Shown here in pieces: positions 5,479 through 21,333 of a stretch of DNA of 29,491 nt. This DNA is from a virus. The notes under the pieces are model-generated. The model saw only the letters and a list, made by a program, of their open reading frames with translations. It was not told where the DNA came from and did not search any database. The translations under genes were made by a program, and so were the position numbers. Numbering within the stretch: the stretch's first letter is position 1; every line of letters begins with the position of its first letter. Location of the stretch: positions 1-29,491 of IMG/VR virus record IMGVR_UViG_3300027320_000039. The stretch is one strand, 5' to 3'.

Positions 5479-5787
5479 TTATACTTTTAGAACTCCTTTA
5501 TTAAGTTCAAAATTTTCAAGGTCGGTTTGAGCAGTTGCAAAAGCCTTGCCTCTATAAATTAAAATGTCATTTTCATTGATTGTAATCTCGAAACTTTGCC
5601 CCTCTTTAAAAATAGGCTCGTCAAAAATTAATATTAACACACTATTTTGATAATAAGTAGCTAATATTTCAATCTCTGTCGTTGTATCTCGTAACTCATC
5701 GCGTAATAAAAACGTCAATTCACCTCCATTATAAGATCGAGGAATGCATTTGAATTGGTAGGGTGCTGTTAAATTAAATATCCACAT
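5479..5787 (-). CDS. Small conserved-type structural protein, function unknown
   Basis: I do not recognise this 102-residue protein with certainty. It has alternating hydrophobic strands (ELTFLLRDELRD, SVLILIFDEPIF, FEITINENDILIYRGKAF) and is probably a compact beta domain without signal peptide or membrane segment. It is the first gene of the portal-fibre unit, lies 3 bases before portal and directly follows late-promoter-like site A, whose motif ends 5 bases before the start codon. A virion or assembly role is inferred from position only. Confidence 0.6.
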   Translation of the reverse strand: MWIFNLTAPYQFKCIPRSYNGGELTFLLRDELRDTTTEIEILATYYQNSVLILIFDEPIFKEGQSFEITINENDILIYRGKAFATAQTDLENFELNKGVLKV

Positions 5788-5816
5788 ATATATATAACTA
5801 TAAAATAACGTTTTGT
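5788..5816 (-). promoter_or_regulatory. Putative phage late promoter, site A
   Basis: On the minus strand ACAAAAC, ten bases, then AGTTATA (5816-5793) is followed by TATAT and the start codon at 5787. The same two blocks with the same ten-base gap occur at sites B and C. It lacks the Bacteroidetes TAnnTTTG -7 box, so a non-housekeeping sigma or activator is inferred. With the second block only 5 bases from ATG, the transcript would be leaderless or nearly so if that block is a -10 element. Confidence 0.6.
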
Positions 5817-5819
5817 AAC

Positions 5820-5848
5820 AAAAAAAGCCACCGAAGTGACTTTTTTTT
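5820..5848 (-). terminator. Intrinsic terminator with UUCG tetraloop
   Basis: Read on the minus strand, A-tract, GUCAC, UUCG, GUGGC, U-tract forms a hairpin (one G-U pair) closed by the very stable C(UUCG)G tetraloop. It ends the capsid/tail-tube unit about 20 bases after the stop at 5869 and lies just before site A. Confidence 0.85.
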
Positions 5849-5868
5849 AAACAAACTATGAAAGAAAA

Positions 5869-6393
5869 TTAGGAAACAACCACGTCGCTAACCAAAGCCA
5901 TTAATGCGCTTTTAGTTGCTGAGTCCAAAAATGGACTTAAATTACTTTCCTCGGCAGTTATGGTTAATGTAAACCCGGATAAATCCGCTCCGGCGCCTCC
6001 GGTTACTTTTGTGCAGTTTGACATTGTTCCGTTAGCTGCACCAACTAAAAGAATATTTCCATTATAATCCTCTACGAAAACGTAAGGACGAGATGCGCAA
6101 ATTAATTGAATTTGACCTTGTAAGTCAGCCGATAATTTTGGAAGTGTAACCGCTAATGATTGAGCGTTTAAAAATGTTCCGTTATCCTGTGAGCTTGTTC
6201 CGGTTTCTGTTAATGTATTTGTAGTCGCTTTAACTTCGTATTTAAAAACTTCGTCCAAAGATCCCAAGCTCGTAACCTGGTGCGCTGCAATTACAAAAGT
6301 ATAATCGTCATAATTGGCGAAATATAAATTTTTGTAACCACCTCTTTGATCTTTACATCCTAGAAGTTTTCCTTTTGATATAAGACAAGACAT
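5869..6393 (-). CDS. Probable major tail (tube) protein
   Basis: This 174-residue protein begins MSCLISKGKLLGCKDQRGG, an opening I associate with structural proteins directly after the major capsid gene in Bacteroidetes siphophages. It is rich in beta-type segments (YTFVIAAHQVT, YEVKATTNTLTETG, SYVFVEDYNG-like) and ends in a small helical tail. Size and composition fit a tail tube subunit, which would polymerise around the tape measure. It follows the capsid gene after a strong hairpin (6414-6443), which could set the ratio of the two products by partial readthrough. Another decoration or head protein is possible. Confidence 0.5.
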   Translation of the reverse strand: MSCLISKGKLLGCKDQRGGYKNLYFANYDDYTFVIAAHQVTSLGSLDEVFKYEVKATTNTLTETGTSSQDNGTFLNAQSLAVTLPKLSADLQGQIQLICASRPYVFVEDYNGNILLVGAANGTMSNCTKVTGGAGADLSGFTLTITAEESNLSPFLDSATKSALMALVSDVVVS

Positions 6394-6413
6394 ATATTTG
6401 TGATTTTTTTATT

Positions 6414-6443
6414 AAAAACCGCTCAAATTAATGAGCGGTTTTT
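6414..6443 (-). terminator. Intrinsic terminator after major capsid gene
   Basis: AAAAACCGCTCA and TGAGCGGTTTTT form a perfect 12-bp stem around a 6-base loop, with A and U tracts on both sides so it can act on either strand. It lies between the capsid stop (6455) and the start of the next gene (6393). No promoter-like motif separates the two genes, so the downstream gene probably depends on readthrough. Confidence 0.85.
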
Positions 6444-6454
6444 ATGTTAATTAA

Positions 6455-7354
6455 TTAGTCTAAAGATAACCAAACGATTTCCTCAGCGTTGTAATATCCA
6501 ACACCTACAGCGTAAACCACTTTTCCTCTAACTTTTCCAGTTAGTAAACCGATTTCGTCTTCGTCAACTAAAGCAACTTGATTGTAGTCAGCTGTTAAAC
6601 CTGTAGCAAAAACTAAGTTTTTCTTTTCGTAGATAACAACTGAGTTAGCTGGTAATCCGTTTAATACTGTTAATGTGTGACGACCGAATGCCAAAGGAAA
6701 ATCAGTGTTACCCATTCCGTAAGTAATTCCTTGAGTTGACAAGTGGAAAGCGTAAGCCTGAGCAACGTCTGGAGAAACCGCAACGATTAACTCTTTATTT
6801 CTCAAAGCAACTGGCACAGCGCTTAAAGCTGGTTTCAAATATTTAGTCAATACGTTAGCCTCAGTAACGGCAGCGTCAGCAGTTGGTTTGTTAACGTCAG
6901 CGTCAGCAGTAAATTGAGTTAACCAACCGTCAAAGTTAGTTGAAGACGTCCACATGTCAGACTCTAATTTTTCACCGATAGCTCCTAAAACTTCCGCTTG
7001 GATTGCGTCCATAATGTCGCTAGGTGCTGTTCCGTTAGCAGCTCCTCCGCCCATAATTCCGTCAGACCAAGTCTGTCTAAAATCTTCTTTACAAACATCA
7101 AAATCATTTTTGAATTTGAAAGGCTCGATTGCGTTTTCGTTTAATACGATTGTTCCAGCTGGAGCAAATCCGCAAGTGTAAGCAGTTGTCCCGTCTGTGT
7201 AAGCAATTTTTCTCAAAGAGATTTTAAAGTTTACATTCTCAGCGATTGTTACCGCTCCTTTTTCTATTGTGTCAATAGTTTTGAACGCTTGACCGATAAT
7301 TGCACCGGCAGCCGTTCCATTGTAGTTCGATGATACAGTTGTAGTTGTAGCCAT
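6455..7354 (-). CDS. Major capsid protein
   Basis: At 299 residues this has the length and texture of a small HK97-fold major capsid protein: an N-terminal arm, a segment with FDVCKEDFRQTW, a long helix (SDIMDAIQAEVLGAIGEKLESDMW), an Ala-rich spine, and a C-terminal beta domain ending YAVGVGYYNAEEIVW. Its codons are more uniform than its neighbours' (repeated gtt, gct, gaa), as expected for a heavily expressed gene. It follows the protease/scaffold gene by 9 bases and is closed by a strong terminator. The capsid fold is inferred from family resemblance and context. Confidence 0.8.
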   Translation of the reverse strand: MATTTTVSSNYNGTAAGAIIGQAFKTIDTIEKGAVTIAENVNFKISLRKIAYTDGTTAYTCGFAPAGTIVLNENAIEPFKFKNDFDVCKEDFRQTWSDGIMGGGAANGTAPSDIMDAIQAEVLGAIGEKLESDMWTSSTNFDGWLTQFTADADVNKPTADAAVTEANVLTKYLKPALSAVPVALRNKELIVAVSPDVAQAYAFHLSTQGITYGMGNTDFPLAFGRHTLTVLNGLPANSVVIYEKKNLVFATGLTADYNQVALVDEDEIGLLTGKVRGKVVYAVGVGYYNAEEIVWLSLD

Positions 7355-7363
7355 TTTTTAAAA

Positions 7364-8470
7364 TTATTTTTTTAAGTTATTTAATATTTTTTGTGATCTA
7401 GTTAGTTTCACGTTTTTTGTTGAAGTTTCAGCAACTTCCGGCTTTGCTTTTGTTGACGCTTTTACTTCAACTTGAGTAGTTTTAACCTCAGTAATTTGAG
7501 CTGTTAATTCAGTACGAATTGACTCAATTTGTTTTGAAACTTCAATACTCATATTGGTAACGATAGCTTTTATCATTTCCTCAGTAGTCATTTCAACCTC
7601 AACTTCAGCCTCAGCCTCCGGAGTTTCCTCTTCAGCCATTGCGTCTTTAATTTCAGCAATTTTCCCCTCTTCGGTAATTACTAAAATTTTTCCGTCTTCA
7701 AGTTCGTGTTCTCCAACTGGAGCTGGAACTTTGTCGCCATTTTCAGCAACGATAAAAACCGCTTGCTCAGCCTCAAAAGACTCAGCCTCTAAAATAGTTA
7801 CACCATCTTTTAGCATCATTGTAGCCATTGTAACCTCAACGGTTTCAATTACTTCAACTTGCTCAGCCTCGTTCGATAATTTTATCGATGCGAAACCATC
7901 TTTTATCGCGTTAACGATACTCTCTAAATTCATATTGATTTCTGTTTTTAAATTTACTCTCTCCATATCAAAGACTCCGTCAATCGAAAATCCTTTGACT
8001 TTGCCGGTCTTAACGTAGTCGTTCCAAATCTCGTCGTTATTAACTTTCATTAATCCAAACCAGGTGCCAACCTCTTCGTTAAATCCGTAATGTACCGACT
8101 TATCGTGTACCTCGTCTTCTTTTATCCAACTTTCAACAAATGTTACATTTTGGATTTGCTCTCCAGAGTGTTCGATTGTTGAATTATTTTGATATCCTTT
8201 TAAGGCAAAATTTTGTTGAACTTGTTTAATCGTTTCTTTTGGGAATACGATATTAAATTCGTGGCCGTCCTGATTTCTGTAAATCGGTTGGTTAGGAATT
8301 AATATTGCACCCATCAAAATTCTTTGCTCCTCGTTTACGGTTGCTAGTTTAATTTCTTTTTGTTTTGAAAGTGTGATAAAATTAACACCTATCGCCGGAT
8401 CAGAAACTAACGACACACAATATACTCCGTCGTTTTCCTCTTCATTAAATAAAACTTTGTAAGTCTCCAT
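7364..8470 (-). CDS. Prohead protease (XkdF-like) fused to scaffold
   Basis: Residues 1-170 resemble the XkdF-type prohead serine protease: a hydrophobic start, EHSG with candidate catalytic His101, FVESWIK (about 111-117), and GFSIDG with candidate catalytic Ser162. Residues about 175-368 are acidic, low-complexity and probably coiled (EAEAEVEVEMTTEEMIKAI), then end in a Lys-rich tail (ILNNLKK), as in scaffold domains that are cleaved out of the prohead. The protein would organise capsid assembly and then digest the scaffold. It is the first gene of the capsid unit, directly behind site B. Confidence 0.75.
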   Translation of the reverse strand: METYKVLFNEEENDGVYCVSLVSDPAIGVNFITLSKQKEIKLATVNEEQRILMGAILIPNQPIYRNQDGHEFNIVFPKETIKQVQQNFALKGYQNNSTIEHSGEQIQNVTFVESWIKEDEVHDKSVHYGFNEEVGTWFGLMKVNNDEIWNDYVKTGKVKGFSIDGVFDMERVNLKTEINMNLESIVNAIKDGFASIKLSNEAEQVEVIETVEVTMATMMLKDGVTILEAESFEAEQAVFIVAENGDKVPAPVGEHELEDGKILVITEEGKIAEIKDAMAEEETPEAEAEVEVEMTTEEMIKAIVTNMSIEVSKQIESIRTELTAQITEVKTTQVEVKASTKAKPEVAETSTKNVKLTRSQKILNNLKK

Positions 8471-8500
8471 ATATACTATAACTTTAATTTGTTGTTTTGT
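8471..8500 (-). promoter_or_regulatory. Putative phage late promoter, site B
   Basis: Minus-strand ACAAAAC-N10-AGTTATA (8500-8477) is followed by GTATAT and ATG at 8470. Block sequences and the ten-base gap match sites A and C exactly; the distance to ATG is one base longer. It drives the protease-capsid unit and lies at the left end of a gene-free, very AT-rich 308-bp stretch (8471-8778). Confidence 0.6.
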
Positions 8501-8550
8501 TATAAACTTTTTGCATTAAATTTTAATTTAATGACATAACTTTTTTTTAT

Positions 8551-8622
8551 TTTTCAAGCTATAACCTTAAAATTTATTTTTTATTTCAAGTTTTAGCTTG
8601 AAAATCCATATTAATTTTAAGG
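8551..8622 (-). promoter_or_regulatory. Intergenic element with crossing 10-bp helices
   Basis: Two perfect 10-bp complementary pairs interleave here: 8551-8560 with 8595-8604 (ttttcaagct / agcttgaaaa) and 8565-8574 with 8613-8622 (ccttaaaatt / aattttaagg). Their order along the strand is B, A, B', A', so both can form at once only as a pseudoknot; otherwise they are alternative hairpins. A 6-bp hairpin (8585-8602) competes with one helix. It lies between the tape measure stop and site B. A U-rich tail is lacking, so simple termination is unlikely. Confidence 0.45.
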
Positions 8623-8735
8623 CTCTTTTTAAGCGTTTATTTTAATTAAAAGAACTTTATATATATTATATTGTCTTTTTAAAGTTTTTCAATTTAACGC
8701 AAAATCCTAATAAAATCAATATCTCACAGCTCAAG

Positions 8736-8778
8736 ATTTTATCTATAGTAAATATTTTTACTATAAATTTTATCTATA
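8736..8778 (-). repeat. Hairpin flanked by a direct repeat after the tape measure gene
   Basis: TATAGTAAA (8744-8752) and TTTACTATA (8757-8765) form a perfect 9-bp stem with a 4-base loop. The 12-mer attttatctata is repeated at 8736-8747 and 8767-8778, overlapping one arm. It begins right at the stop of the tape measure gene. Without GC pairs or a U tract it would be a poor terminator; a transcript 3'-end stabiliser or protein site is possible. Confidence 0.45.
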
Positions 8779-10668
8779 TTAAATTGACGCGTTTGTAATA
8801 ATATTACGATCCAAAGCCTGAGCCGTACTAACGTCCGACGATACTACATAACTTTTTATTGGTTGTTGACTTTGACTTCCTATCGTCTGAGCAAGTTGGT
8901 TTGTTGAACTCGATCCAACCGTGTTAAAACTTGGGGCTGTCATACTCGGAGCGCTACCACCTTGAGCGCCACCTCCACCGCCACCACCTCCGCCAGGAAT
9001 TTGAACTGAGACGATATCTTGTACCGCTTTAAATCCTGTCGCTGCGATTATAGCAACGTTGGCAATTTTCAATCCAATTTCAAAAGGGGTGACGGTCTTG
9101 GTTGCAAGCTCTGCCGTTATACCCTGATAAGTATTTATCAAAGCCGCTGCCGCTGCCATTGCTTTACCGGCTGCCGTATTTTTACCCAATAAATCTGCGC
9201 CCTTACTTAACGTCTCCGAAGTTTTAGCAAATAAGGCTTGTTTTGCCGCAGCTGTTCTTTTAGCGATTTCAACTTCGGCAGCTCCTTGATCCTCATCGGA
9301 TTTTTTCTTTTTAGCTTTGCCCTCTGCGTCTAAATTTTCTAAGTCAGACAAATGTTGCATCTCAAGTTCAAAAGTACTTTTACCGGCTGCCTCTAGAATT
9401 GCTTTTTTCTCTTCAAACTCTCTTTGAAGTTTTTGAGTTGGAGTCTCTTTGCTTTGAGCTAACTCGTCAATAATTTTCTGCGCGTCGTCTTGTCTTTTTT
9501 TCTCTGCGTCAGCTTGAGACTTATTTAAATCCTCAATTCCTTTTTGTGTCTCTTCGTCAAATTTCTTTTTATCCTCAATCGCTTTTAGTCTCGCTGTCTC
9601 TGCGTCCTCTTTTGCTTTTGTCGCTGCCTCTTTGTTTTTATCGCCTACCTCTTTATTGTGGTTGGTTTGAGATTGTAATACTTCAACCTGGTGACGTCTT
9701 TGAATATCTCTCCTTTCGTCAAATGCTTTTTGTACGTTTTGATTTTGTTTGTTATAATCTAAAATTGATTTGTTGGTAGTCTCTTGTTGTTTTTTAATTA
9801 CCTCCTCGTCTGCATCGGCAGCCTTTAAAGACGCTAAATAATTTTTATTTTTTTCGTAGGTATTAAACGCAATCGCTCTAGCCGATTTTTCGTAAGCAAT
9901 TTTTTCATCAATCAATTTTAATTCTAACGCTCTAATTGACTCCGCACTCGCTCCGGAGGCTTTCGCCATTGCTAGCTCTTGATTTTGTTTTTTCTGCAAT
10001 TCGCTAGAGTTACGCTCCAAAGTTTTGGTTTGACTATCTAGAGCTTTTTTATTTGCGTCAACGGCCTTAGTATTTGCTGCCGCTGCGGCTGAGCTTTCCT
10101 TAAAATAATTAACTAACGCAACTCCGGCAGCAATTAAAGCGACAATTCCGGCCACAATCGCCCCTATTGGGTTTGCCATTATTGCAGCGTTCCAAATATA
10201 TTGACCGACTGTGACTAATTTTTGAACTATTGAATAAGATTTCGCAACGGCTGCTAATTGTTTGAACGAGTCCACGCTCTCTCCAATGGTTTGTAAACCT
10301 TGAGACAAAGCCATTGCGCTTTGAACTTTTAAAAGTGTTTGTTCTACCTCTTTTGATTGACCTCCAAATAACGCTTGCGCTCCTTGAACGGCAGCAAAAC
10401 CTCCAGCAACTCCAGCCAAAGACGAACTCAAAGCCTTAAATTTAGCATCCGGATTAAAGGCATCGGTTAAGTTTTTAGCGTCTGCGATTTTGTCTTTTAA
10501 TTCGGCGGCTTTTTTAGCGGCATTTGCAGCCTCGACAGAAGTAACTCCAAACTTATCGGACAATATAGCGACCTCAGCTTGCGCCTGTCTTAATTGTGAT
10601 TTTAAACTCCCAACGGCCTCGTCTGCGTTCCCTTGTATATTTATGTCAATTACTTTCTCAATCGCCAT
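8779..10668 (-). CDS. Tail tape measure protein
   Basis: This 629-residue protein has the usual tape measure layout: an N-terminal coiled coil (AVGSLKSQLRQAQAEVAIL), hydrophobic helices about residues 150-190 (NPIGAIVAGIVALIAAGVAL), long charged coiled coils about 210-460, an Ala-rich hydrophobic region about 495-560, and a Gly-rich run near 565 before a Ser/Gln-rich end. Tape measures sit inside the tail tube and fix its length. At the usual 1.5 angstrom per residue this would give a tail of roughly 95 nm. Unusually, it is the last gene of the tail unit, after the distal tail genes. Its start lies inside the end of a 48-codon gene. Confidence 0.9.
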   Translation of the reverse strand: MAIEKVIDINIQGNADEAVGSLKSQLRQAQAEVAILSDKFGVTSVEAANAAKKAAELKDKIADAKNLTDAFNPDAKFKALSSSLAGVAGGFAAVQGAQALFGGQSKEVEQTLLKVQSAMALSQGLQTIGESVDSFKQLAAVAKSYSIVQKLVTVGQYIWNAAIMANPIGAIVAGIVALIAAGVALVNYFKESSAAAAANTKAVDANKKALDSQTKTLERNSSELQKKQNQELAMAKASGASAESIRALELKLIDEKIAYEKSARAIAFNTYEKNKNYLASLKAADADEEVIKKQQETTNKSILDYNKQNQNVQKAFDERRDIQRRHQVEVLQSQTNHNKEVGDKNKEAATKAKEDAETARLKAIEDKKKFDEETQKGIEDLNKSQADAEKKRQDDAQKIIDELAQSKETPTQKLQREFEEKKAILEAAGKSTFELEMQHLSDLENLDAEGKAKKKKSDEDQGAAEVEIAKRTAAAKQALFAKTSETLSKGADLLGKNTAAGKAMAAAAALINTYQGITAELATKTVTPFEIGLKIANVAIIAATGFKAVQDIVSVQIPGGGGGGGGGAQGGSAPSMTAPSFNTVGSSSTNQLAQTIGSQSQQPIKSYVVSSDVSTAQALDRNIITNASI

Positions 10669-10796
10669 TTTAATAAGTCTTTAAATTGTTGTAAATAGTT
10701 TTTTTTAAGTTGGTATTTTCCCTTAGCGCTTGCGATTATTTCATTGTGTTCGTATTGCTCAGCGTGTTTGAGCATTTCTAAAATGTTATTTATCAT
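10650..10796 (-). CDS. Small basic protein (48 aa) ahead of tape measure
   Basis: An open frame of 48 codons starts with ATG at 10796, inside an ATGA overlap with the stop of the preceding 677-residue gene, and ends 19 bases inside the tape measure start. It fills exactly the gap between two large genes, which argues that it is translated. The sequence is helical and Lys-rich (MINNILEMLKHAEQYEHNE, then YLQQFKDLLKWRLRK). Function is unknown; the position suggests a tail assembly factor. Confidence 0.55.
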   Translation of the reverse strand: MINNILEMLKHAEQYEHNEIIASAKGKYQLKKNYLQQFKDLLKWRLRK

Positions 10797-12826
10797 AATT
10801 CGTTTAAGAGTTCAATATCGCTCTCTCCAGTTGTTAAGTTAGTAGTAATTTTATTTATTCTAAATAGGCGATCCACGATTTTAAACCTATCATTTAATTC
10901 GAATTTTAAAAGTATTGACAAAGGCAAAATTGCCTTAATTTTTGTTAGTCTATTTTTAGGATTAAAAACTTGCAAAATGTAATCCTGATAATATTTTAAA
11001 AATAAAGTGTCTGTAAAATCATTGCCAAAAGTCCACTCGTTAAGCTCGGCCTTAAAATTTATATTTGACTTACTTACATTTGGATCAAAACTTCTAGAAT
11101 TTGACGGAGCAATATAAGACGTGATTTGTTCTCGAGTTGACGTTGTAGGTCTCCATGACATATTCGCAACTCCGGTAACTAATACCGGATAAAATAAAAG
11201 CGGCTTTCCTAAGGCTGCCTCGTAGTTTCCTGTCGCAGCGTTGAAGTTATCCGTTGCCGAATATCCCCATTGTATATCTAGTGGAGTCGTTCCTCCATTT
11301 ATGTCGAATATTCTCTCATATTTAAAATGAGAAAACGGAAGAGTCACTTTATAAATTGGCCCCTCAATTTCTGGCATTTCATTATAAATCTCTTTTGCCC
11401 AATCGTAGTTAAATTGCTGAGAATGTTTTAAAGCCAATAAAGTTTTTGTGTCTTCAAAACCAAACTCAATTTCTTTAAATGGTAATGCAACGTTTACAGT
11501 TCTTTGATCTACTTTTATATATTGCGTAATATCGTAAACGTCTGAGGTTGCATAAAAATCATTAAGAGTTTTGACAACCGTTATTCCATTTTCAACGTAA
11601 GCCGTCAAATTAAACATTCTAAAAATACCACTTAAAAAATCAATTACTTTTATCTCAGGAATTTGCTGAGCAATATCAAAAATGAAACTTGCATTTGTGT
11701 TGAAAATAGTTGCATAAAAATAATTATATATATTTTCCGGATATCCTTGCTCATTAATTATAGTATAACTAATTGTCAATATCATTTGATCAATTGTAAT
11801 AACAGACTGGCTTTGAATAAAAAAAGTATAACTACCGGCGGGATATAAATATAAAATCGGTAAATCTATTTGAGATCCGTTTAAAGTATTACTCGACCAA
11901 TAAACCGATCCGTTTCTATAAATTATAAATCGGTAGTCAGTTGTCGAGGTAGTTGTTATATCTATAAATGCTGGGCCATCAAAAAAACCTTCGTCAGATA
12001 TAACAAGCTCACTACCAAACTCCCACGTTGTAATTAACTCCGGAGGTAAAATTCCACTTTCAACTCCTTGAACTCCTCCTTTTGCTCTGTGCAACCACAT
12101 AAATAAATTATAGTAGTCTAGATTAGTACTATTAAAAAAGTCGTCGCTAAATACCAACCCGTATTGAGTTCCAATAGCTTGGATTATTGCATCCAAACGA
12201 ATAGCATATTTTAAATCCGACCACAAAAGCCCATGATTATGAGCGCCTCCCGATTGATAATATAAATTAGTTTCGTTTTCGCTATGTCCTGAGCTGCTGT
12301 CAAAATAATATCTATTTGTATGCGATATAAAAGGAGTAATTACATCGGTCGTCGTTGGATCGGCTTGGAATTTTGTCTTAATATTTGTGTTATTATAGGC
12401 TATATTATAGCTTGACAAAGGCAAAACGTTCAATTTATCCTCTCCGATAACGTCTTTTAGGTTAACCGTGTCTCCGTAATACGTTACTTTATAGGCATAA
12501 GGTTGATTATTTTTCATTTCAACCCCCTCAAGTTTGATTTTACCACTGTTAAATCGGTTGGCATCAATCTCAATATAAGCGTCAATCTTTACTCTGGCAT
12601 CAAATCCTCCGTCAATGTCATAATTATAATAGTGTTTAAAGAGTCTATTGTTTTCGTTACTCGCCGGCAAAGTAAACGTCTTAGTAAAATTCGTAAATAT
12701 CAAACTTATATCTTTGACATCCTGGATCACCTGAGTAATTAAGATAGTCTCATCGTTAAATAAGTCACTCCTTTGGAATTTATTTAAGGTATTATTTTTT
12801 AAAAATAAAGCTAAGTTTAATTTCAT
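10793..12826 (-). CDS. Large distal tail / baseplate protein
   Basis: This 677-residue protein opens with short strands and the phrase FTKTFTLPASNENNRLFKHYY, followed by DIDGGFDARVKIDAYIEI and KIKLEGVEMKNNQPYAYKV, a pattern I associate with large tail proteins conserved in Bacteroidetes prophages. The C-terminus (KFELNDRFKIVDRLFRINKI) is also beta-rich. Size and position, after a 373-residue tail protein, suit a tail-associated or hub-type protein at the tail tip. No enzymatic motif (lysozyme or peptidase) is visible. It overlaps the upstream stop by one base (TAATG). Confidence 0.6.
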   Translation of the reverse strand: MKLNLALFLKNNTLNKFQRSDLFNDETILITQVIQDVKDISLIFTNFTKTFTLPASNENNRLFKHYYNYDIDGGFDARVKIDAYIEIDANRFNSGKIKLEGVEMKNNQPYAYKVTYYGDTVNLKDVIGEDKLNVLPLSSYNIAYNNTNIKTKFQADPTTTDVITPFISHTNRYYFDSSSGHSENETNLYYQSGGAHNHGLLWSDLKYAIRLDAIIQAIGTQYGLVFSDDFFNSTNLDYYNLFMWLHRAKGGVQGVESGILPPELITTWEFGSELVISDEGFFDGPAFIDITTTSTTDYRFIIYRNGSVYWSSNTLNGSQIDLPILYLYPAGSYTFFIQSQSVITIDQMILTISYTIINEQGYPENIYNYFYATIFNTNASFIFDIAQQIPEIKVIDFLSGIFRMFNLTAYVENGITVVKTLNDFYATSDVYDITQYIKVDQRTVNVALPFKEIEFGFEDTKTLLALKHSQQFNYDWAKEIYNEMPEIEGPIYKVTLPFSHFKYERIFDINGGTTPLDIQWGYSATDNFNAATGNYEAALGKPLLFYPVLVTGVANMSWRPTTSTREQITSYIAPSNSRSFDPNVSKSNINFKAELNEWTFGNDFTDTLFLKYYQDYILQVFNPKNRLTKIKAILPLSILLKFELNDRFKIVDRLFRINKITTNLTTGESDIELLNEL

Positions 12827-13947
12827 TATATAACGTCATTAATTAAATTATAACTATATTCAAACTCTAGCTCATAATTTATAAGTCTATTTTTTAATTT
12901 TGTTTTTAGCTCAGTCGCTTGAGTTTTAACAATCACTGGCTTTTTATCAATTAAAACTTTCTCGCTTAAAAGTAAATCAGTTATTAATTCCTTATAATTT
13001 TCGTCAACCCAACCTGTATTGGCTTTTAAAACTTGAGTACCTATAAAATTAAAAGATTTGTTTTGCCCTCTTAATGGATTATAATCAACCTCGTTTGGAC
13101 TTAGTTTATAGTCTTCATTTTTTACGCTTAAATTATTTGTTTGAGCTTTGAAAAAAGTAATTGTTTGCCAACCTCCAAAACGATTAATGAAGTCACAAAG
13201 TACCGGAGTGTATTTAACCTCGCATATTGGATAAGTATAAAACGATGGTAAAATTATAGGACTCCCCGTTGCTGGAGTGTATGTAATTGTAACTTTGCAA
13301 CCGTTAATAAATAAATCAAGAACTTTAACAATACTGATAGGAATTTTAGTATTAAACACTCCAGCAAAACCTACCCCAAATGACGCGGTCAAAGAATAAG
13401 CAACCCCATCAATTCTTTCATACCTTATGTCTACAATAGTTGTGGTTGTGGTTGGCTTATCTACAATTAAATTAAAATACTGCATTAAATCATTTGGGTA
13501 TGTTGACTGTTTGTAGTAATAATTATTAATATTTGGATTTGCTAATAACAATATTTTTACTTCGCTTGGATTTTGTATTCCATCCATATAATTAGTAAAC
13601 CCATTTACCCCATAATAATAGGCATCCGTTAATAATACATAAACCGAACTTGAATTTAAATAATATCTTTTAATTCTAAATACACACCATTCATTGTTTT
13701 GCTCAGGATTTCCTACATAATTAGTATACACAGGCGCAATATTCTCGATATATTCTTTTACAAAATTTGAAACGTTGTAACTTGTCAATCTTTGAGCTGT
13801 AGTTGGTATTGGTTTGCTTAATATATATGTCGGAGTCGCTGGCTCAGAACTTCCAGCGTTCCAAATAAATAATTCTATTTTAGATCCCAACTGAGTAGCC
13901 TCATTTATTTGAATTACAAATGGACTTCTAACGTTTACTACTTTCAT
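12826..13947 (-). CDS. Distal tail structural protein
   Basis: This 373-residue protein is beta-rich. Its C-terminal third has YTPVLCDFINRFGGWQTITFFKA, then NPLRGQNKSFNFIG, NTGWVDENYKELITDLLLSE and INYELEFEYSYNLIND, phrases I recall from a conserved tail protein of Bacteroidetes prophages. It is coupled to a 53-codon gene upstream (ATGA overlap) and to the 677-residue tail protein downstream. A distal-tail (Dit-like) position is plausible but not shown by any motif. Confidence 0.6.
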   Translation of the reverse strand: MKVVNVRSPFVIQINEATQLGSKIELFIWNAGSSEPATPTYILSKPIPTTAQRLTSYNVSNFVKEYIENIAPVYTNYVGNPEQNNEWCVFRIKRYYLNSSSVYVLLTDAYYYGVNGFTNYMDGIQNPSEVKILLLANPNINNYYYKQSTYPNDLMQYFNLIVDKPTTTTTIVDIRYERIDGVAYSLTASFGVGFAGVFNTKIPISIVKVLDLFINGCKVTITYTPATGSPIILPSFYTYPICEVKYTPVLCDFINRFGGWQTITFFKAQTNNLSVKNEDYKLSPNEVDYNPLRGQNKSFNFIGTQVLKANTGWVDENYKELITDLLLSEKVLIDKKPVIVKTQATELKTKLKNRLINYELEFEYSYNLINDVI

Positions 13948-14105
13948 ATTGTATGATATTTTGTGTCAATCAATTCGTCATTTATATATATTTCCTCTTT
14001 ACAATCCCATAAAATTATGAATTGACTTGAGTCGATTACATTTTCGCTTTCAATTGTAAAAGTTGGAATAGTATCGTTTTCTTTATAAATTTTTACTTTA
14101 TTCAT
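13944..14105 (-). CDS. Small tail-operon protein (53 aa)
   Basis: A 53-codon frame from ATG at 14105 is joined to both neighbours: TAATG with the stop of the neck gene and ATGA with the start of the 373-residue tail gene. It exactly fills a 157-bp gap in the operon. The protein is acidic with strand-like segments (MNKVKIYKENDTIPTFTIES and FIILWDCKEEIYINDEL). Function is unknown. Confidence 0.6.
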   Translation of the reverse strand: MNKVKIYKENDTIPTFTIESENVIDSSQFIILWDCKEEIYINDELIDTKYHTI

Positions 14106-14626
14106 TATAATTCTTTTAGTGTAAATTTTAAAAACAACTCCAAATCTAAGCCGTATTTTTCAACTATATTATTATCAAAATTTTTATACTCATTGTCAAA
14201 GGCATTCCTAAAAAATCTAGTCTCGTATGTTCCCGTTCTATTTATCGAGTTAGTGATTGACGTCACCATCATTTTACGATTTGCAAATTGACCTCCGGCG
14301 CCTCTCACTCCTTGTATGCCTTTACGCAATACCCACTTATCAATTGCTCCTCGAACAGCATTTGCTCTATATGGAGAGTTCGGAGCTTTTGCACTTGACT
14401 CACTTCCTTTCGTTCCAAAGTCTAACTCTTTCCAATAGTCCTCAGCGTAAAAATCAAACTCAATAGAGTTTTTATTCTCTTTGGCTTTGTAGTCTAACGA
14501 CTTTGATAATTGACCGGATGCGTTGTTCGTTCCATAACGGCCTCCTATTTTCAAATTAAGCCTGGCTCGCTCAACTACTAACGCTCCAAAATCGTTGAGG
14601 GCTTGCTGTACGTTTTTAGTCTCCAT
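14105..14626 (-). CDS. HK97 gp10-like neck / tail-joining protein
   Basis: The protein (173 residues from ATG at 14626) has the usual pattern of HK97 gp10 relatives: an N-terminal helix (VQQALNDFGALVVERARLNL), SGQLSKSLDYKAKENKNSIEFDF, a YWKELDFGTKG turn, and a C-terminal region ending EKYGLDLELFLKF. Such proteins sit at the head-tail interface. An upstream TTG at 14641 is in frame, but ATG at 14626 gives a normal start and an 11-bp overlap with the previous gene. Its neighbours are the tail completion gene and a 53-codon gene. Confidence 0.65.
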   Translation of the reverse strand: METKNVQQALNDFGALVVERARLNLKIGGRYGTNNASGQLSKSLDYKAKENKNSIEFDFYAEDYWKELDFGTKGSESSAKAPNSPYRANAVRGAIDKWVLRKGIQGVRGAGGQFANRKMMVTSITNSINRTGTYETRFFRNAFDNEYKNFDNNIVEKYGLDLELFLKFTLKEL

Positions 14627-15080
14627 TACAGCAAACTCCAAAATCGTTATTCGGTACGCTTATTTCAATATCACACTTCCAACCGTCTAAGGCATTTGTA
14701 AACGCTAATAAAATTGGTTGCAAAGTTGGATCGTTTTGTAATTCAATGTCATTGTCATTACGTTGCAATCTCATTTTTGTAATCATATAATTGAGGATTG
14801 CGTGGCACGTATTTAAGTTGTCGAGTTCGTTGTCGTTCCCAAGAAATTTATCTTTTGCATTTATTTTAGACATATTTCGAATGTCTACAATAGCAACCTC
14901 AAAAGTAAAATTAACAACTCCAGAGCTAATCGTCGAGCTGAGGATATTAATGTGAGCAAGTGGAAAAATATTTTTCTTAACATTGTCGATTATGTCTGTC
15001 CCGTGAGTTATGGTATTTAAAAGAGGTGCGCTTTCCAGCGTACTTTTAATATATTCAATTGCCTGATAAAATGCTCTCAT
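14616..15080 (-). CDS. Tail completion / tail terminator-like protein
   Basis: This 154-residue protein starts with a helix (MRAFYQAIEYIKSTLES), has a central strand region (VVNFTFEVAIVDIRNMS), a helix (LDNLNTCHAILNYMITKMR) and an ending WKCDIEISVPNNDFGVC. Helix-strand order and position between tail chaperones and the neck protein fit tail terminators that cap the tail tube. Three cysteines lie at the end. It overlaps the frameshifted chaperone frame by four bases. Assignment is by position and general fold pattern. Confidence 0.55.
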   Translation of the reverse strand: MRAFYQAIEYIKSTLESAPLLNTITHGTDIIDNVKKNIFPLAHINILSSTISSGVVNFTFEVAIVDIRNMSKINAKDKFLGNDNELDNLNTCHAILNYMITKMRLQRNDNDIELQNDPTLQPILLAFTNALDGWKCDIEISVPNNDFGVCCNGD

Positions 15081-15337
15081 TTTTTAAAGTGATTTTTAAT
15101 TTGTTTTGCCTCCTCTTTGCTTTCGTCGATTAAGTAAGATAATAACGTGAGTGACTCGTGAAGAGGCTCGCCTCCAACTTCTCTAGGCTTAACTCCAAGT
15201 TCTCTTGAAAGTCTAACAAAAGATTGATACCAACCCCACCGGTCTCCAAAACCTCCTCGAGAGATTTCCCCTCCCTCATCGCCTTGCTCTCCAAATGCGA
15301 TAGGATATTGTTCAATAATTCCTTGCTTAAATTCCAA
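15077..15337 (-). CDS. Tail assembly chaperone, -1 frame extension
   Basis: An 86-codon frame begins at TTG in the T9 run, one base back from the zero frame of the 230-residue protein, and ends just before the tail completion gene. It lacks an ATG at its start and carries GGFGDRWGWYQSFVRLS and EPLHESLTLLSYLIDESKEE, which resemble the second domain of chaperones in other Bacteroidetes phages. Expression by -1 slippage would give a fusion of 162 + 86 = 248 residues. Separate initiation at TTG is possible but less likely. Confidence 0.65.
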   Translation of the reverse strand: MEFKQGIIEQYPIAFGEQGDEGGEISRGGFGDRWGWYQSFVRLSRELGVKPREVGGEPLHESLTLLSYLIDESKEEAKQIKNHFKK

Positions 15338-15822
15338 AAAAAAAGTATTGATCCGATAACAACGTCCATTCTAACATCGTTAAATAACTCCGCTTTGCTT
15401 TCGTCTCCGTCGTATGCCTCAATTTGATAAAATGGATAAATCTTTTTTGTTATTGGGCGGTACATTACCGACATTAATAAACTTAAATTCTCATCCGTTC
15501 CTAGTAGTGAGTCCATTGTCGCATGTTCCCCTAGTGTCATCTTATCAAAGTTTGGGATAAAACCATATTCAACCCCGTTCATTTTAAACGTCTTAACTCT
15601 CTCGGGTTTTTGATCTAATACCTTTGCCAATTGCTCCACTATCTCAGCGAAATTGTTAACCGGTATTTTCATAACATCGGCCACGCTGAGGTTACAAAAT
15701 ATAGCAACCATTTGAATGCACACAAAGGTCTCATCGTCCTGGTTGTCTTTTAATACTTTTAAATATCTCAAATATTGAGACAATTTAATCTCCTTTAAAT
15801 CCGTTGGAATAACTACTCTCAT
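15130..15822 (-). CDS. Tail assembly chaperone, zero-frame product
   Basis: This 230-residue product is the first gene of the tail unit, 5 bases after site C. It is mostly helical, with LSQYLRYLKVLKDNQDDETF at the start and FNKMTL-type short motifs (DKMTLGEHATMDSLLG) in the middle. After codon 162 the frame passes a run of nine T, and a second frame of 86 codons begins there and extends past its stop. This two-frame layout is the hallmark of the G/GT pair of tail assembly chaperones, which load on the tape measure. Residues 163-230 overlap the shifted frame, so that DNA would be read in two frames. Confidence 0.7.
   Translation of the reverse strand: MRVVIPTDLKEIKLSQYLRYLKVLKDNQDDETFVCIQMVAIFCNLSVADVMKIPVNNFAEIVEQLAKVLDQKPERVKTFKMNGVEYGFIPNFDKMTLGEHATMDSLLGTDENLSLLMSVMYRPITKKIYPFYQIEAYDGDESKAELFNDVRMDVVIGSILFFWNLSKELLNNILSHLESKAMREGKSLEEVLETGGVGINLLLDFQENLELSLEKLEASLFTSHSRYYLT
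15337..15343 (-). promoter_or_regulatory. Programmed -1 frameshift site (T TTT TTT)
   Basis: Nine consecutive T (15344-15336) give, in the zero frame, codons CTT TTT TTT TGG, so a perfect X XXY YYZ heptamer of type T TTT TTT is in register. Slippage by -1 leads directly into the 86-codon frame. No clear stimulatory stem was found by eye just downstream. Confidence 0.65.
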
Positions 15823-15851
15823 ATATATATAACTAAAAAATGTCGTTTTGT
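15823..15851 (-). promoter_or_regulatory. Putative phage late promoter, site C
   Basis: Minus-strand ACAAAAC-N10-AGTTATA (15851-15828) is followed by TATAT and ATG at 15822, exactly as at site A. It precedes the whole tail operon, from the chaperones to the tape measure. Confidence 0.6.
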
Positions 15852-15869
15852 TTATAAAAATTATTTTGG

Positions 15870-15889
15870 TTGTACGTTATTACGTACAA
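15870..15889. repeat. Perfect palindrome between terminase and tail units
   Basis: TTGTACGT, four bases, ACGTACAA forms an 8-bp stem. The half ttattacgt is repeated inverted as acgtaataa at about 15905, so a second pairing is possible. It lies between the terminase stop and site C. No U tract follows, so it may be a weak terminator or a protein-binding site. Confidence 0.5.
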
Positions 15890-15914
15890 TATTTAACTTT
15901 ATGCACGTAATAAG

Positions 15915-17078
15915 CTACGTAATTATTAAGCGTCTGCTTTTATTTATTGCCAGGCTCATCATTGCAAAGTAACGAAGAGCGTCGATTGCGTGGTTAAATT
16001 CGTCAATAGGTCTGTTTAATTTTTTACCGGTCTTGTCAACGTCCCAGCTGTAGTTCCTCAACTCTTTAATTAGGTTGGTGCTAGACTTAGTGACTAAGAT
16101 TTCCTTTTGCTGCAATACCGATATTCCGTAATTGATTGAGTCCGCACCTTTGACAACGGGTTTAATATTGTAACCGGCTCGTCTTATCTCTTCAATTGAC
16201 TTTGGCTCGGCTGAGTCCGCCCAAATTGGAGCGGTGCGTTCCTGTTTCATTAATCGAATTATATCGGAGTTTAATAGTGAGGTACTATAAATCAATTCGT
16301 CAACGATAATTTTCCCATTGTAATCGTAGACAGCAATGTGAGCGGTTGGGTCATTTGAATAACCAAAATCGAGTCCCGTTCCTAAGAATTTCGCCTCCGT
16401 TGGTATGGTATCGATTTGCTCCCAATTTTGGAATATAACTCCCTCAAGTGAACCAAGTTGGCCGAGTCCGTAAACGTTCCACCAGTTCGCCCAATATGTC
16501 GACGTCTGCGCTTTGTCTTTTGCTTTTTCAATCTCTCGAACGATTGCCGGATCGAGTGCCTCGTTATCTTTGTACGTCAATACGACAAAGTCAGAGTCCG
16601 GATCGTTTAATAGTTCCGTTTGTACCCAAAACTCATTCGTTGGGTTGTAGTCAAGGTATATGAATTTCTTTGTACGGATTGCGAGTTGCTGATAGCTTTC
16701 AAAGTCGATATTATTGCACTCGTTTATAAATAGAATATCACGTCTCGCTCCTCGTAATTTGTCAGGCTGATCCACGCTAAAAAATTCAATATAGGAATTA
16801 TTCGAGAATGTATATTTTAAAGATGAGCGGTTGAAATTTTGATCCTTATAATTGTCGGTTAAAAGCATTATCTTTTGAAAGTCTTTTAAAGCTCCCCTCT
16901 TTAAATGGGGAATGCTCTCACTAACTATTGATATTTCCGAAAATGGATTTTCAATAGCGTAAGTAATAAGTAAAGGTAATATCGAAAACGTTTTGGAGCT
17001 ACTCGTTCCACCTTGCACAATCCGAACTCGTTTTCTTAGTTTGGCAATTTTACTCTGAGCTGTCGTTTTCTGGAACAT
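15915..17078 (-). CDS. terL: Terminase large subunit (PBSX-type)
   Basis: This 387-residue protein is the packaging motor ATPase and nuclease. The N-terminal domain shows a Walker A-type loop QGGTSSSKT (residues 22-30), the Walker B segment DILFINE with catalytic Glu120, and a conserved YLDYNPTNEFWV (about 141-152). The C-terminal RNase H-like nuclease shows LDFGYSNDP with Asp237, WADSAEPKS with Asp288, and NHAIDALRY with Asp366, the three metal-binding acids. Length is typical of compact PBSX-like terminases. Its start lies 29 bases inside the end of the small subunit gene. It is the last gene of the site D unit. Confidence 0.95.
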   Translation of the reverse strand: MFQKTTAQSKIAKLRKRVRIVQGGTSSSKTFSILPLLITYAIENPFSEISIVSESIPHLKRGALKDFQKIMLLTDNYKDQNFNRSSLKYTFSNNSYIEFFSVDQPDKLRGARRDILFINECNNIDFESYQQLAIRTKKFIYLDYNPTNEFWVQTELLNDPDSDFVVLTYKDNEALDPAIVREIEKAKDKAQTSTYWANWWNVYGLGQLGSLEGVIFQNWEQIDTIPTEAKFLGTGLDFGYSNDPTAHIAVYDYNGKIIVDELIYSTSLLNSDIIRLMKQERTAPIWADSAEPKSIEEIRRAGYNIKPVVKGADSINYGISVLQQKEILVTKSSTNLIKELRNYSWDVDKTGKKLNRPIDEFNHAIDALRYFAMMSLAINKSRRLIIT

Positions 17079-17346
17079 CCAAGTCTAAGGAATTAAAAAT
17101 CGGTTTCTCAATACTTATATGTTGGTCGATTGTCTGTTTTGGCATTCCAAAGAAGTATTTAAACCACAATTCAATCGCCCACTTCTCTCCAGCTTGCATC
17201 GCTGCCTCGAGTTGCAATATTGCCTCTGGTAAAAAAGGTTTCAATCTCTCGTAAGTGTCTTGCATTTCGGACTTTGTCATCAATCTTTTGTCGTCTGGCC
17301 TTGTCGCTTTGGTTGAATGTCCTCCGTTTAATTTTCTTTTATCCAT
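17050..17346 (-). CDS. terS: Terminase small subunit-like protein
   Basis: The 98-residue protein lies directly upstream of, and overlaps, the large terminase, the usual place of the DNA-recognising small subunit. It starts with a basic GRP-like tail (NGGHSTKATRPDDKRL), followed by a helical segment (LPEAILQLEAAMQAGEKWAIELWFKYFFG), then the phrase MPKQTIDQHISIEKPIF seen in small subunits of this kind. It is shorter than most small terminases (120-180 residues) and has no clear N-terminal helix-turn-helix, so DNA recognition may be delegated or minimal. Confidence 0.7.
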   Translation of the reverse strand: MDKRKLNGGHSTKATRPDDKRLMTKSEMQDTYERLKPFLPEAILQLEAAMQAGEKWAIELWFKYFFGMPKQTIDQHISIEKPIFNSLDLDVPENDSSE

Positions 17347-17363
17347 AATTTAACACAAATTAA

Positions 17364-17591
17364 CTAATTAATTTGAGCGTTTCCGTTGTATCTCCCTAAA
17401 ATTACTTCGTTATTCATTAAAAACATCGACGTGAACATTTTAAACCCCTTATAAGACTTCGTTTTTAATAACTTGAATAAGTTATCCGGCATCCAAATTT
17501 CGTTCACTGAGAGGTCTGCTGGTGCGTTTTCAATAACAGCATCAAGGAATTTATAAAATTCGTCTTGTTTTTGTTTTTTAGTTACTTTCAT
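17364..17591 (-). CDS. Small protein of unknown function
   Basis: I do not recognise this 75-residue protein. It begins with a Lys/Gln-rich helix (MKVTKKQKQDEFYKFLDAVI), then has short strand-like segments (GFKMFTSMFLMNNEVILGRY). No cysteine pair, signal peptide or membrane segment is visible. It overlaps the preceding zinc-finger-like gene by 14 bases and is followed by the small terminase 17 bases later, so it belongs to the regulator-terminase unit. Confidence 0.6.
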   Translation of the reverse strand: MKVTKKQKQDEFYKFLDAVIENAPADLSVNEIWMPDNLFKLLKTKSYKGFKMFTSMFLMNNEVILGRYNGNAQIN

Positions 17592-17955
17592 ACGAGAATA
17601 ATTTGTATAAATCCTTTATAATCGTCTCGTGAACTTTCGAGCAAGTCGGACAATTAGAATTATCGATGCCAAAATAGTATAAATATAAACCATTTAAATA
17701 ATTTACGTCTTCAAAAACCAACTCAGTTCGTTTTCCCTCAATTACTCTTTGACCTTTTGCCTCTAAAAATAGAGTAAAATGTTCCTTATCAATTGGAGTC
17801 ATTTCAGACTTAACCTTTTTAAAGTTAAAAAGTCTGTTTAATTTAAATTGTCTTTCCTTACAATCTAAGCAAGGCTCAATTCCAACCGCTGAGGTTAGAT
17901 TGGCGACAACGTCTCCAAGTCCTTGTATTTGTTTTTTAGTCCTTCTTTTTGCCAT
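17578..17955 (-). CDS. Protein with two CxxC pairs, probably zinc-binding
   Basis: This 125-residue protein begins with a basic tail and the phrase GLGDVVANLTSAVGIEPCLDCKERQFKLN, followed by a helical middle and CPTCSKVHETIIKDLYKLF near the end. Cys29/Cys32 and the CPTC pair near residue 102 could bind one zinc ion. Proteins with a GLGD-start and a C-x2-C-x-ER motif are familiar to me near the terminase genes of Bacteroidetes phages, with no assigned role. It overlaps the sigma-like gene by 20 bases. DNA or RNA polymerase binding would fit the context but is inference. Confidence 0.6.
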   Translation of the reverse strand: MAKRRTKKQIQGLGDVVANLTSAVGIEPCLDCKERQFKLNRLFNFKKVKSEMTPIDKEHFTLFLEAKGQRVIEGKRTELVFEDVNYLNGLYLYYFGIDNSNCPTCSKVHETIIKDLYKLFSYESN

Positions 17956-18364
17956 TTAGTTTAATTTTTACCATCTTATTAACTCGATGGATAGTTTGAA
18001 TGTGTATTCCGGTTTGTCTTGAGAGTTCACGTTGACCGTGTAGCGTTGAAAGTTCAAATAAAGTCCTTTCATACCAGGTCAAGTCTTTTGAAAGCTCTTT
18101 ATAATCAATTCCGTCGTTATATTCCTCCTCTTCAATTTCAAATTTAGAGAAATCGTCAATTAAAATATCGTTATTTTTAAGAGAGTCATAAAATAATGAC
18201 CTCAAAGTTACAAATATATATCCGTCTGAGACAGGAATAGTCCTATCCGATAATTTAATATACATATTTTGAGTCAACTCGTCTGCTAAGTCTTTGCATT
18301 TACAAATTTGTAAAGCCATTTTTCGCCATTGGGCATCCTTTTTAGCGAGTTCGTTTATAATCAT
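17936..18364 (-). CDS. Sigma-70/ECF-like transcription factor, candidate late regulator
   Basis: The 142-residue protein has the two-domain plan of a short sigma factor. Residues about 15-60 (CKDLADELTQNMYIKL then IFVTLRSLFYDSLKN) resemble region 2, where the order DLADELTQ..Y and the following helix match the ECF core. Residues about 95-138 (LTWYERTLFELSTLHGQ, then RELSRQTGIHIQTIHRVNKM) give a region 4 helix-turn-helix. It lies just upstream of the terminase genes, where many phages encode a late activator. Its own unit is preceded by site D, and sites A-C precede the other structural units, so it is the obvious candidate to read them. A non-sigma DNA-binding regulator is the main alternative. 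Confidence 0.65.
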   Translation of the reverse strand: MIINELAKKDAQWRKMALQICKCKDLADELTQNMYIKLSDRTIPVSDGYIFVTLRSLFYDSLKNNDILIDDFSKFEIEEEEYNDGIDYKELSKDLTWYERTLFELSTLHGQRELSRQTGIHIQTIHRVNKMVKIKLNGKKKD

Positions 18365-18594
18365 AATCGCATTGGATTAAAATACTCACTTAAAAAATGT
18401 AAAACGTGAGATTCATTTTCAATATAGTAAGCCGTCCCTCTGACAATTAAGACGATTTCGTCTGGAGTTTCAACCCAAAAACCATCGATACTATCGACGT
18501 TGACTCTAAAATCCACAAACGATCCGTTGAGTCCGAGATTGTCGTCTTCCTGTTCCAACCACATTTGAGTCGATATTGTGTACGGTTTAATCAT
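18361..18594 (-). CDS. Small acidic protein, first gene of regulator unit
   Basis: This 77-residue protein is unknown to me. It is acidic, with strand-like stretches (FVDFRVNVDSIDGFWVET, EIVLIVRGTAYYIEN) and a terminal helix (VLHFLSEYFNPMRL). It has no membrane segment. Its stop and the start of the sigma-like gene overlap by four bases, so the two are likely co-translated; it could bind or modulate the sigma-like protein, but nothing in the sequence proves that. A TATATTTG box ends only 4 bases before its start codon, suggesting a nearly leaderless transcript. Confidence 0.6.
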   Translation of the reverse strand: MIKPYTISTQMWLEQEDDNLGLNGSFVDFRVNVDSIDGFWVETPDEIVLIVRGTAYYIENESHVLHFLSEYFNPMRL

Positions 18595-18598
18595 TTGA

Positions 18599-18643
18599 CA
18601 AATATAGTAAATATATTAATATAACGGTAAAAAGTTATTTTGT
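18599..18643 (-). promoter_or_regulatory. Composite promoter: site D plus a TATATTTG box
   Basis: ACAAAAT-N10-CGTTATA (18643-18620) is a two-mismatch version of the late motif with the same ten-base gap. Downstream, TATATTTG (18606-18599) is a housekeeping-type Bacteroidetes -7 box ending 4 bases before ATG at 18594. The arrangement could allow basal transcription by the host polymerase and later boosting by the phage factor encoded in the same unit. Confidence 0.5.
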
Positions 18644-20256: not shown

Positions 20257-21333
20257 TTAATTTATTTTACTTAGCCATTGCTCATATATATTTGAGGCGA
20301 TTTGTGCTGTCATAATTGGAGGGACTGACATTCCAATTAAATACTCAGGTTTTAAATTTAAAAAATTATAATCCTGAGGGAAAGTTCCAATATTACATAA
20401 TTCAATTTTATTTAATAATCTAGGATAATCAAATAAAACTGTATTATCGTTTGCAATTATAGTTTTATTAACTTCGTTCATTTTAGTAAATTTAAAACCA
20501 AAGTAAGTTGGCTTTTTAAATAAACGATCATTAATGTTACCCAAATCGTTATCAGTAGAAATTTTATTATTCCATAAATGTAAACATCCAGGGGTTAAAT
20601 TCCTATCGGTTAAATCAAAAAAAACATTTTTAAAAGGAATTTCAATCTCATTAAAATTCATTTCAATAGTTGGTAACTCTGTAAACATATCGGCAAAAGA
20701 TAAAAATTGACCCGCTAAGTCTTTACGTAAACATATAAAAAAAACTCTCTCTCTCTTTTGAGGTACTCCCATTTTTGAGGCGTCTAATAAAAAATGTTGA
20801 CAATAATATCCAGCTTTGTCAAACTCTTCATAAATTTTACGGACGTAAGCCTTAGCCTCGCCCATTAATAATCCTTTTACATTTTCAGCGACTACGACTT
20901 TGGGTTGTAATTCTTTTGCTAAGTCAATAAAGTCAAAAAATAAAGTATCTAAAACTTGCTCAGCCTGTCCCTCTCTAAAAACTTTTTCTTTGCCCCAGTC
21001 TTTTTCTCTATTTCCAGCCATTGAAAACGAGCTGCAAGGAGGAGAGCCGTCTAATATATCTAAATTATATAAATCTTTTGGCAAATCTTTACGCTTTGCA
21101 AAAGTAGTTATCGACTCTAAAAAAGAATATTTTGGATTATGATTTTCTTTGTATACCTCAATCATTTTTTTATCAATATCATTATGACCTATAACGTCAA
21201 AACCTGCTAATTTATAACCCATAGTTGATCCTCCTCCACACGCAAAACAACTAAATACTTTGCCTTTGTCTTTTGTAAATTTAGCGTCTTTTAAATTCCA
21301 ATTGTACGGAAATTTATGTTTATTTTCTTTCAT
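20257..21333 (-). CDS. DNA cytosine-5 methyltransferase
   Basis: The 358-residue protein carries the C5-methyltransferase motifs in order: motif I as CFACGGGSTMGY (about 29-40) for S-adenosylmethionine, motif IV GSPPCSSFS with nucleophile Cys100, motif VI VVVAENVKGLL (about 147-155), motif VIII PQKRERVFFI (191-200), and a motif X-like end GMSVPPIMTAQIASNIYEQW. It methylates C5 of cytosine in a specific site. No restriction enzyme is encoded nearby, so it is a solitary phage methylase that may shield the phage genome from host restriction. It overlaps the helicase gene by 14 bases. The target region (about 205-290) is short, so specificity is not predictable. Confidence 0.92.
   Translation of the reverse strand: MKENKHKFPYNWNLKDAKFTKDKGKVFSCFACGGGSTMGYKLAGFDVIGHNDIDKKMIEVYKENHNPKYSFLESITTFAKRKDLPKDLYNLDILDGSPPCSSFSMAGNREKDWGKEKVFREGQAEQVLDTLFFDFIDLAKELQPKVVVAENVKGLLMGEAKAYVRKIYEEFDKAGYYCQHFLLDASKMGVPQKRERVFFICLRKDLAGQFLSFADMFTELPTIEMNFNEIEIPFKNVFFDLTDRNLTPGCLHLWNNKISTDNDLGNINDRLFKKPTYFGFKFTKMNEVNKTIIANDNTVLFDYPRLLNKIELCNIGTFPQDYNFLNLKPEYLIGMSVPPIMTAQIASNIYEQWLSKIN

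Follow-up and report, generated by a model that had tools for sequence, protein, structure and literature searches.

The subject of this analysis is a 24-base bipartite motif, ACAAAAC-N10-AGTTATA, which heads units of virion genes in the virus record IMGVR_UViG_3300027320_000039 of IMG/VR (29,491 bases, the whole of which is called the window here). The motif is most probably a promoter and not a translation signal. It is read as such because its two boxes are coupled to each other and because one of its sites abuts an intrinsic terminator whose stem covaries among relatives. We consider it quite probable that this promoter belongs to a phage-encoded sigma factor of the extracytoplasmic function (ECF) type, that the genes at the unit heads are expressed from leaderless or near-leaderless messages, and that the unit carrying the sigma gene has a dual entry. 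In the mechanism proposed, the core of the host RNA polymerase together with the phage sigma would bind the ACAAAAC box through region 4 and the [A/C]GTTATA box through region 2, and this holoenzyme would start each virion-gene unit.

Proposed promoter sites in the window

Three exact copies of the motif are found, all on the minus strand, at positions 5793-5816, 8477-8500 and 15828-15851, while the number expected from 100 dinucleotide-preserving shuffles is 0.00. The -35 and -10 boxes occupy 5810-5816 and 5793-5799 in unit 1, 8494-8500 and 8477-8483 in unit 2, and 15845-15851 and 15828-15834 in unit 3, and all three promoters are conserved in relatives. The fourth site, 18620-18643 on the same strand, is a variant with two mismatches, ACAAAAT-N10-CGTTATA; relatives have from 0 to 3 mismatches at the equivalent place. 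The gaps between motif and ATG are 5, 6, 5 and 25 bases for units 1 to 4, and the downstream open reading frames (ORFs) start at 5787, 8470, 15822 and 18594. An earlier note on this DNA had described three exact copies and a fourth with two mismatches, all with a spacing of 10, and had placed the exact ones 5-6 bases before the start codons of unit-head genes; both descriptions are borne out. Its statement that the window contains no other copy is correct for 0 or 1 mismatch. At two mismatches there is one additional match, 12880-12903, which is intragenic and lacks GTTA, and at three the number of matches is at chance level (15, compared with 11.2 expected).

The same note held that the sites lack the housekeeping TAnnTTTG box. 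A pattern scan finds no such box at the three exact sites, but at unit 4 a perfect housekeeping -7 box of Bacteroidota, TATATTTG, is located at 18599-18606 (minus strand) between the motif and the ATG at 18594. Of 43 distinct sequences, 40 keep a TAnnTTTG box at this place, and in some relatives it overlaps the GTTATA box. Its conservation beside the motif suggests that the sigma and terminase unit probably has a dual entry with autoregulation: the host sigma would start the unit, and the phage sigma would then reinforce it. The late regulon proposed earlier is thus not entirely self-contained, since unit 4 also possesses a conserved housekeeping box. The late timing of these units is presumed.

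Conservation and spacing

For comparison, 160 loci were fetched, each encoding a relative of the portal or of the sigma-like protein; many of them overlap in origin. They contain 102 exact copies of the motif at spacing 10, and for 101 of them an ATG lies no more than 15 bases away. The two boxes do not occur even once in these loci at spacings of 5-9 or 11-20. When distinct sequences with no more than one mismatch are counted, there are 121 sites, 94 with the ATG at a distance of 5 bases and four with it at 6 bases. The remaining ones, except for one without an ORF, belong to the sigma unit and have gaps of 10-11 or 25-26 bases. The genes that follow belong to the four families found at the unit heads of the window. 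From unit to unit the A+T-rich spacer varies, while ACAAA and GTTAT are nearly fixed.

The closest named phages are the Nonlabens phages P12024S and P12024L (genus Inhavirus), with portal proteins 39-40% identical to that of the window. They resemble the window in having a homologous sigma-like gene upstream of the terminase gene and a motif at the unit heads, 5 bases from the ATG, but the motif is of a different dialect, AAAACA-N17-GTTAAT, and the promoters are not annotated in their records. Inspection of all gene starts in P12024L revealed, at seven unit heads, AAACA-N15/16-[AC]GTTAnT with the ATG 4-5 bases further on, mostly in the form with N17 given above. The pattern ACAAA-N14-CGTTAAT has five exact matches in each of the two phages; the chance expectation in P12024S is 0.42 at up to one mismatch. 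In nine related contigs together with P12024S and P12024L, the spacing from AAACA to CGTTAAT is 16 in 24 cases and any other value in at most two, and 25 of 27 gene-head sites are exactly 5 bases from the ATG. It is important to note that the nine contigs were found using the 5-base gap as a condition; the unbiased case is P12024L, where six of the seven sites are 5 bases and one is 4 bases from the ATG. The boxes thus have essentially one rigid spacing per dialect, near the 16-17 of ECF-type promoters.

The sigma-like protein

The proposed reader of the promoter is the product of 17936-18364 (minus strand), a protein of 142 amino acid residues with an ECF-type sigma fold comprising regions 2 and 4, as judged from an AlphaFold model. 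The model, built from 29 family members (mean predicted local distance difference test score 76.9), consists of two helical domains, residues 2-67 and 88-137, with a linker of low confidence between them. The best structural matches in the PDB are ECF sigma factors, with a probability of 1.0, and region 2 alone fits 1h3l with a root-mean-square deviation of 2.5. The Pfam cut-off for Sigma70_r2 is passed by a relative with 67% identity (L139) and by gp35 of P12024L, and a Sigma-70 region 2 is annotated for gp33 and gp35 in the records of P12024S and P12024L. A match to TIGR02937 spans most of the window protein at a score below the cut-off. A sequence search of the PDB with the single sequence gave nothing relevant, and a profile search gave weak matches to ECF factors. 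In a tblastn search of 50,697 phage records only P12024S and P12024L were found at E ≤ 0.01, and no sequence similarity to phiEco32 gp36 or 7-11 gp47 was detected. No phage RNA polymerase that could serve as an alternative reader was recognized among the window proteins searched, in a record that may be incomplete.

Between the two dialects, region 2 of the sigma is recognizably shared and region 4 has strongly diverged. This fits a model in which region 2 recognizes the shared GTTA and region 4 the -35 box, whose position is shifted. We infer such a correspondence, in which the product of 17936-18364 would be the protein that recognizes the promoter.

The strongest alternative, which we nevertheless regard as unlikely, is that the host sigma acts with a phage DNA-binding activator, or that the phage sigma requires an obligatory co-activator such as the product of 17578-17955 (minus strand). 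This conserved, Cys-containing protein of 125 residues (phrog_32048), a candidate co-regulator or packaging protein, is encoded directly after the sigma gene, and P12024-like phages have a similar protein, whose gene carries a separate promoter of the same class. There is also a precedent in phiEco32, where transcription that depends on the sigma is stimulated by a further regulator, gp79 (PMC8948821). However, the three exact sites are without a TAnnTTTG box, and the sigma and the promoter boxes diverge together between the lineages. ECF sigmas, moreover, usually do not need an activator.

Promoter or translation signal

Another explanation would make the motif an element of translation initiation or mRNA regulation, located in the 5' leader of unit-head messages whose transcription starts further upstream. 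The constant distance of 5 bases to the ATG agrees with such a role, as does the fact that Bacteroidota rely little on Shine-Dalgarno pairing. One comparison concerns the half of the motif near the ATG. Among distinct [AC]GTTATA-N5/6-ATG sites preceding ORFs of at least 60 residues, 105 of 108 also have the ACAAAAC box with 0-2 mismatches. The signal is therefore bipartite, and an element serving only the start codon would not need the upstream box. In addition, the motif is confined to unit heads and the internal genes do without it, in the sigma unit it lies 10-26 bases from the ATG, the four units share no element upstream of it, and its two boxes are arranged as in ECF promoters.

The surroundings of the unit 1 promoter argue in the same direction. 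A predicted intrinsic terminator, the hairpin GTCACTTCGGTGGC with a T7 tract (5820-5848, minus strand), ends 3 bases before this promoter. In 24 distinct upstream sequences the stem covaries while TTTTTTGTTACAAA is constant; in variants such as GCTCC/GGAGC, CCCAC/GTGGG and GACTAC/GTAGTC, changes in one arm are matched by changes in the other. Most transcription arriving from upstream should end here, and a new start is therefore to be expected in the last 29 bases ahead of the ATG. The coupling to the upstream box and the terminator abutting the motif lead us to reject a translation signal as the principal explanation, and the leader element described above is improbable.

Specificity of the motif

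The motif followed by N5 and ATG was also searched, without reference to any protein, in 2.9 million viral contigs, where at least 119 stretches matched. Six loci look like chance matches by our classification, and the rest of the listed matches precede genes already known from the units or what appear to be their homologues in more distant phages. Long records among the listed matches encode the sigma in 22 of 25 cases, the other three being chance matches. The sigma-like protein is thus present in each of the 22 where the motif heads a unit, very distant versions of it (E values from 6e-6 to 5e-10) included. In prokaryotes, with one genome taken for each of 84,980 species, 30 matches are scattered over unrelated phyla, and a rough chance estimate that ignores base composition (257 billion bases, both strands counted, divided by 4^17) is also about 30. 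Matches at the level of chance indicate that the motif is not a general host promoter, and its origin in the host is rejected. The capture by the phage of a host promoter read by an alternative sigma, for which one could cite the abundance of ECF sigmas in Bacteroidota, is for the same reason extremely improbable. The description of the motif in the earlier note as phage-specific, located at the heads of structural units and accompanied by a sigma-like gene, holds across many genomes together with the strict spacing, and frequent occurrence in unrelated host DNA, which would have contradicted it, is not observed.

Predicted transcription start and probable leaderless messages

The promoter of the M. 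tuberculosis ECF factor sigma-H has the form GGAACA-17-GTT (PMC6411747). The P12024 geometry, AAAACA-17-GTT, matches it, and the dialect of the window is 2 bases shorter. At the phage-sigma promoters of phiEco32 and 7-11, transcription starts 6-9 bases from the element (PMC8948821). With a -10 box ending 5 bases before the ATG, this geometry would place the first transcribed base on the A of AUG or within about 2 bases of it. No GTG or TTG is found at the motif-coupled start position. The constant 5-base gap in both dialects and the exclusive use of ATG are what a leaderless mRNA would demand, and from these sequence features the unit-head messages are probably leaderless or nearly so. We suggest more tentatively that this phage family couples its late transcriptional switch to a switch in translation: with the first transcribed base being the A of AUG, leaderless virion units would enter ribosomes by a pathway unlike that of the early genes.

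Several observations weigh against the explanation based on a phage sigma. The protease-head site in two distant phages has the GTTATA box but no clear ACAAAAC. The sigma-like protein of the window is itself below the Pfam cut-off, and its best fold match has an E value of 1.9e-3 with a low global template modeling score, although the latter fits a free movement of the two domains relative to each other. The spacing difference of 2 bases between the dialects is unexplained, and a partner protein such as that encoded at 17578-17955 is a candidate participant. Finally, the start-site signal given by a pyrimidine at position -1 (9 of 10 heads compared with 41 of 76 others, p=0.028) is weak.

Genes of the units and other features

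Unit 1 begins with a gene for a protein of 102 residues (5479-5787), followed by the portal gene (3748-5475, phrog_33693), and continues leftwards. The first gene of unit 2 encodes an XkdF-like protease (7364-8470, Pfam Peptidase_S78_2), and this unit also contains the capsid candidate (6455-7354). Unit 3, which extends to 8779, starts with a protein of 230 residues of the MRVVIP family (15130-15822, phrog_32199). The first gene of unit 4 (18361-18594, 77 residues) is of unknown function and has no Pfam match; the large terminase subunit of this unit is encoded at 15915-17078 (Pfam Terminase_3 and Terminase_3C). All these genes are on the minus strand.

Within unit 2, an intrinsic-terminator-like hairpin (aaaaaccgctcattaatttgagcggttttt) at 6394-6454 (minus strand), between the capsid candidate and the gene 5869-6393, may limit downstream expression. 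Upstream of the unit there is a section of 308 bases without a listed ORF (8471-8778), and the 12 bases AAAAAGTTTATA preceding the unit 2 motif are almost invariant among relatives of this unit. The interval that separates the terminase gene from the unit 3 promoter (15852-15914, minus strand) contains an inverted repeat, ttattacgt...acgtaataa, which could be a terminator or a binding site. None of the known RNA families searched for was found in the window. In the early region, a C-5 cytosine DNA methyltransferase (20257-21333, minus strand) adjoins a helicase and a BT4734-like primase. By record annotation, P12024L (L265, 16409-18037) encodes a protein with a 2OG-Fe(II) oxygenase domain and a beta-glucosyl-HMC-alpha-glucosyltransferase, neither of which is annotated in P12024S; base hypermodification is possible. 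The scan for the P12024 dialect also matched an unrelated, near-identical sequence, ggggtcatgtctAAAACAtcctgaaatctaagccCGTTAATccacgATG, with an ORF of 12 residues in many viral contigs (L319, L323-L325, L328, L329, L331, L339, L342, L346, L349, L357-L359, L361, L364, L367 and L368). It looks like a repeat element and was set aside.

Comparison with known systems

A family of viruses of Bacteroidota-type bacteria from lakes and the sea appears to switch on its virion genes with a sigma factor of its own. Transcription control in Bacteroidota phages has been little described, and none of the papers searched was found to describe a sigma regulon in them. The present analysis offers a code for these promoters together with the protein that probably reads it, distinguishes two dialects that differ between lineages, and points to the cultivated phages P12024S and P12024L, in which these can be tested. 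If the messages are leaderless, this programme of virion genes would be one of the rare ones based on leaderless initiation, in hosts with little reliance on Shine-Dalgarno pairing. For expression work in Flavobacteriia, each sigma together with its promoter dialect could also be of use as an orthogonal part.

Phage sigmas with dedicated late promoters are already known from phiEco32 and 7-11. As in these phages, a non-host consensus shared upstream of virion genes is found together with a protein of the sigma-70 family. The late promoters of phage 7-11, GTAAtg-(16)-aCTA, are read by the sigma SaPh711_gp47 (PMC8948821). The similarity consists of a small phage sigma and a bipartite promoter, different from the host consensus, that heads late genes and in 7-11 has its start 6-9 bases away; the sequence and the host are different, the sigmas have no detectable sequence relation, and the word leaderless is not used in the paper concerned (PMC8948821). 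The middle and late promoters of phiEco32, tAATGTAtA, are read by gp36 (PMC8948821). There too a phage sigma redirects the host polymerase to virion genes, as is proposed for the window, but the promoter is a single element without a -35 box, while that of the window is bipartite. The sigma-H-type ECF promoters share with the window the geometry, the GTT core of the -10 box, the stringent spacing and a recognition by regions 2 and 4, which in the window is a proposal. They differ in serving cellular regulons instead of a regulon of virion genes, and the window spacing is 2 bases shorter. The novelty lies in the phage group, in the consensus, which comes in two dialects, and in the strict coupling to the start codon, from which leaderless messages are predicted.

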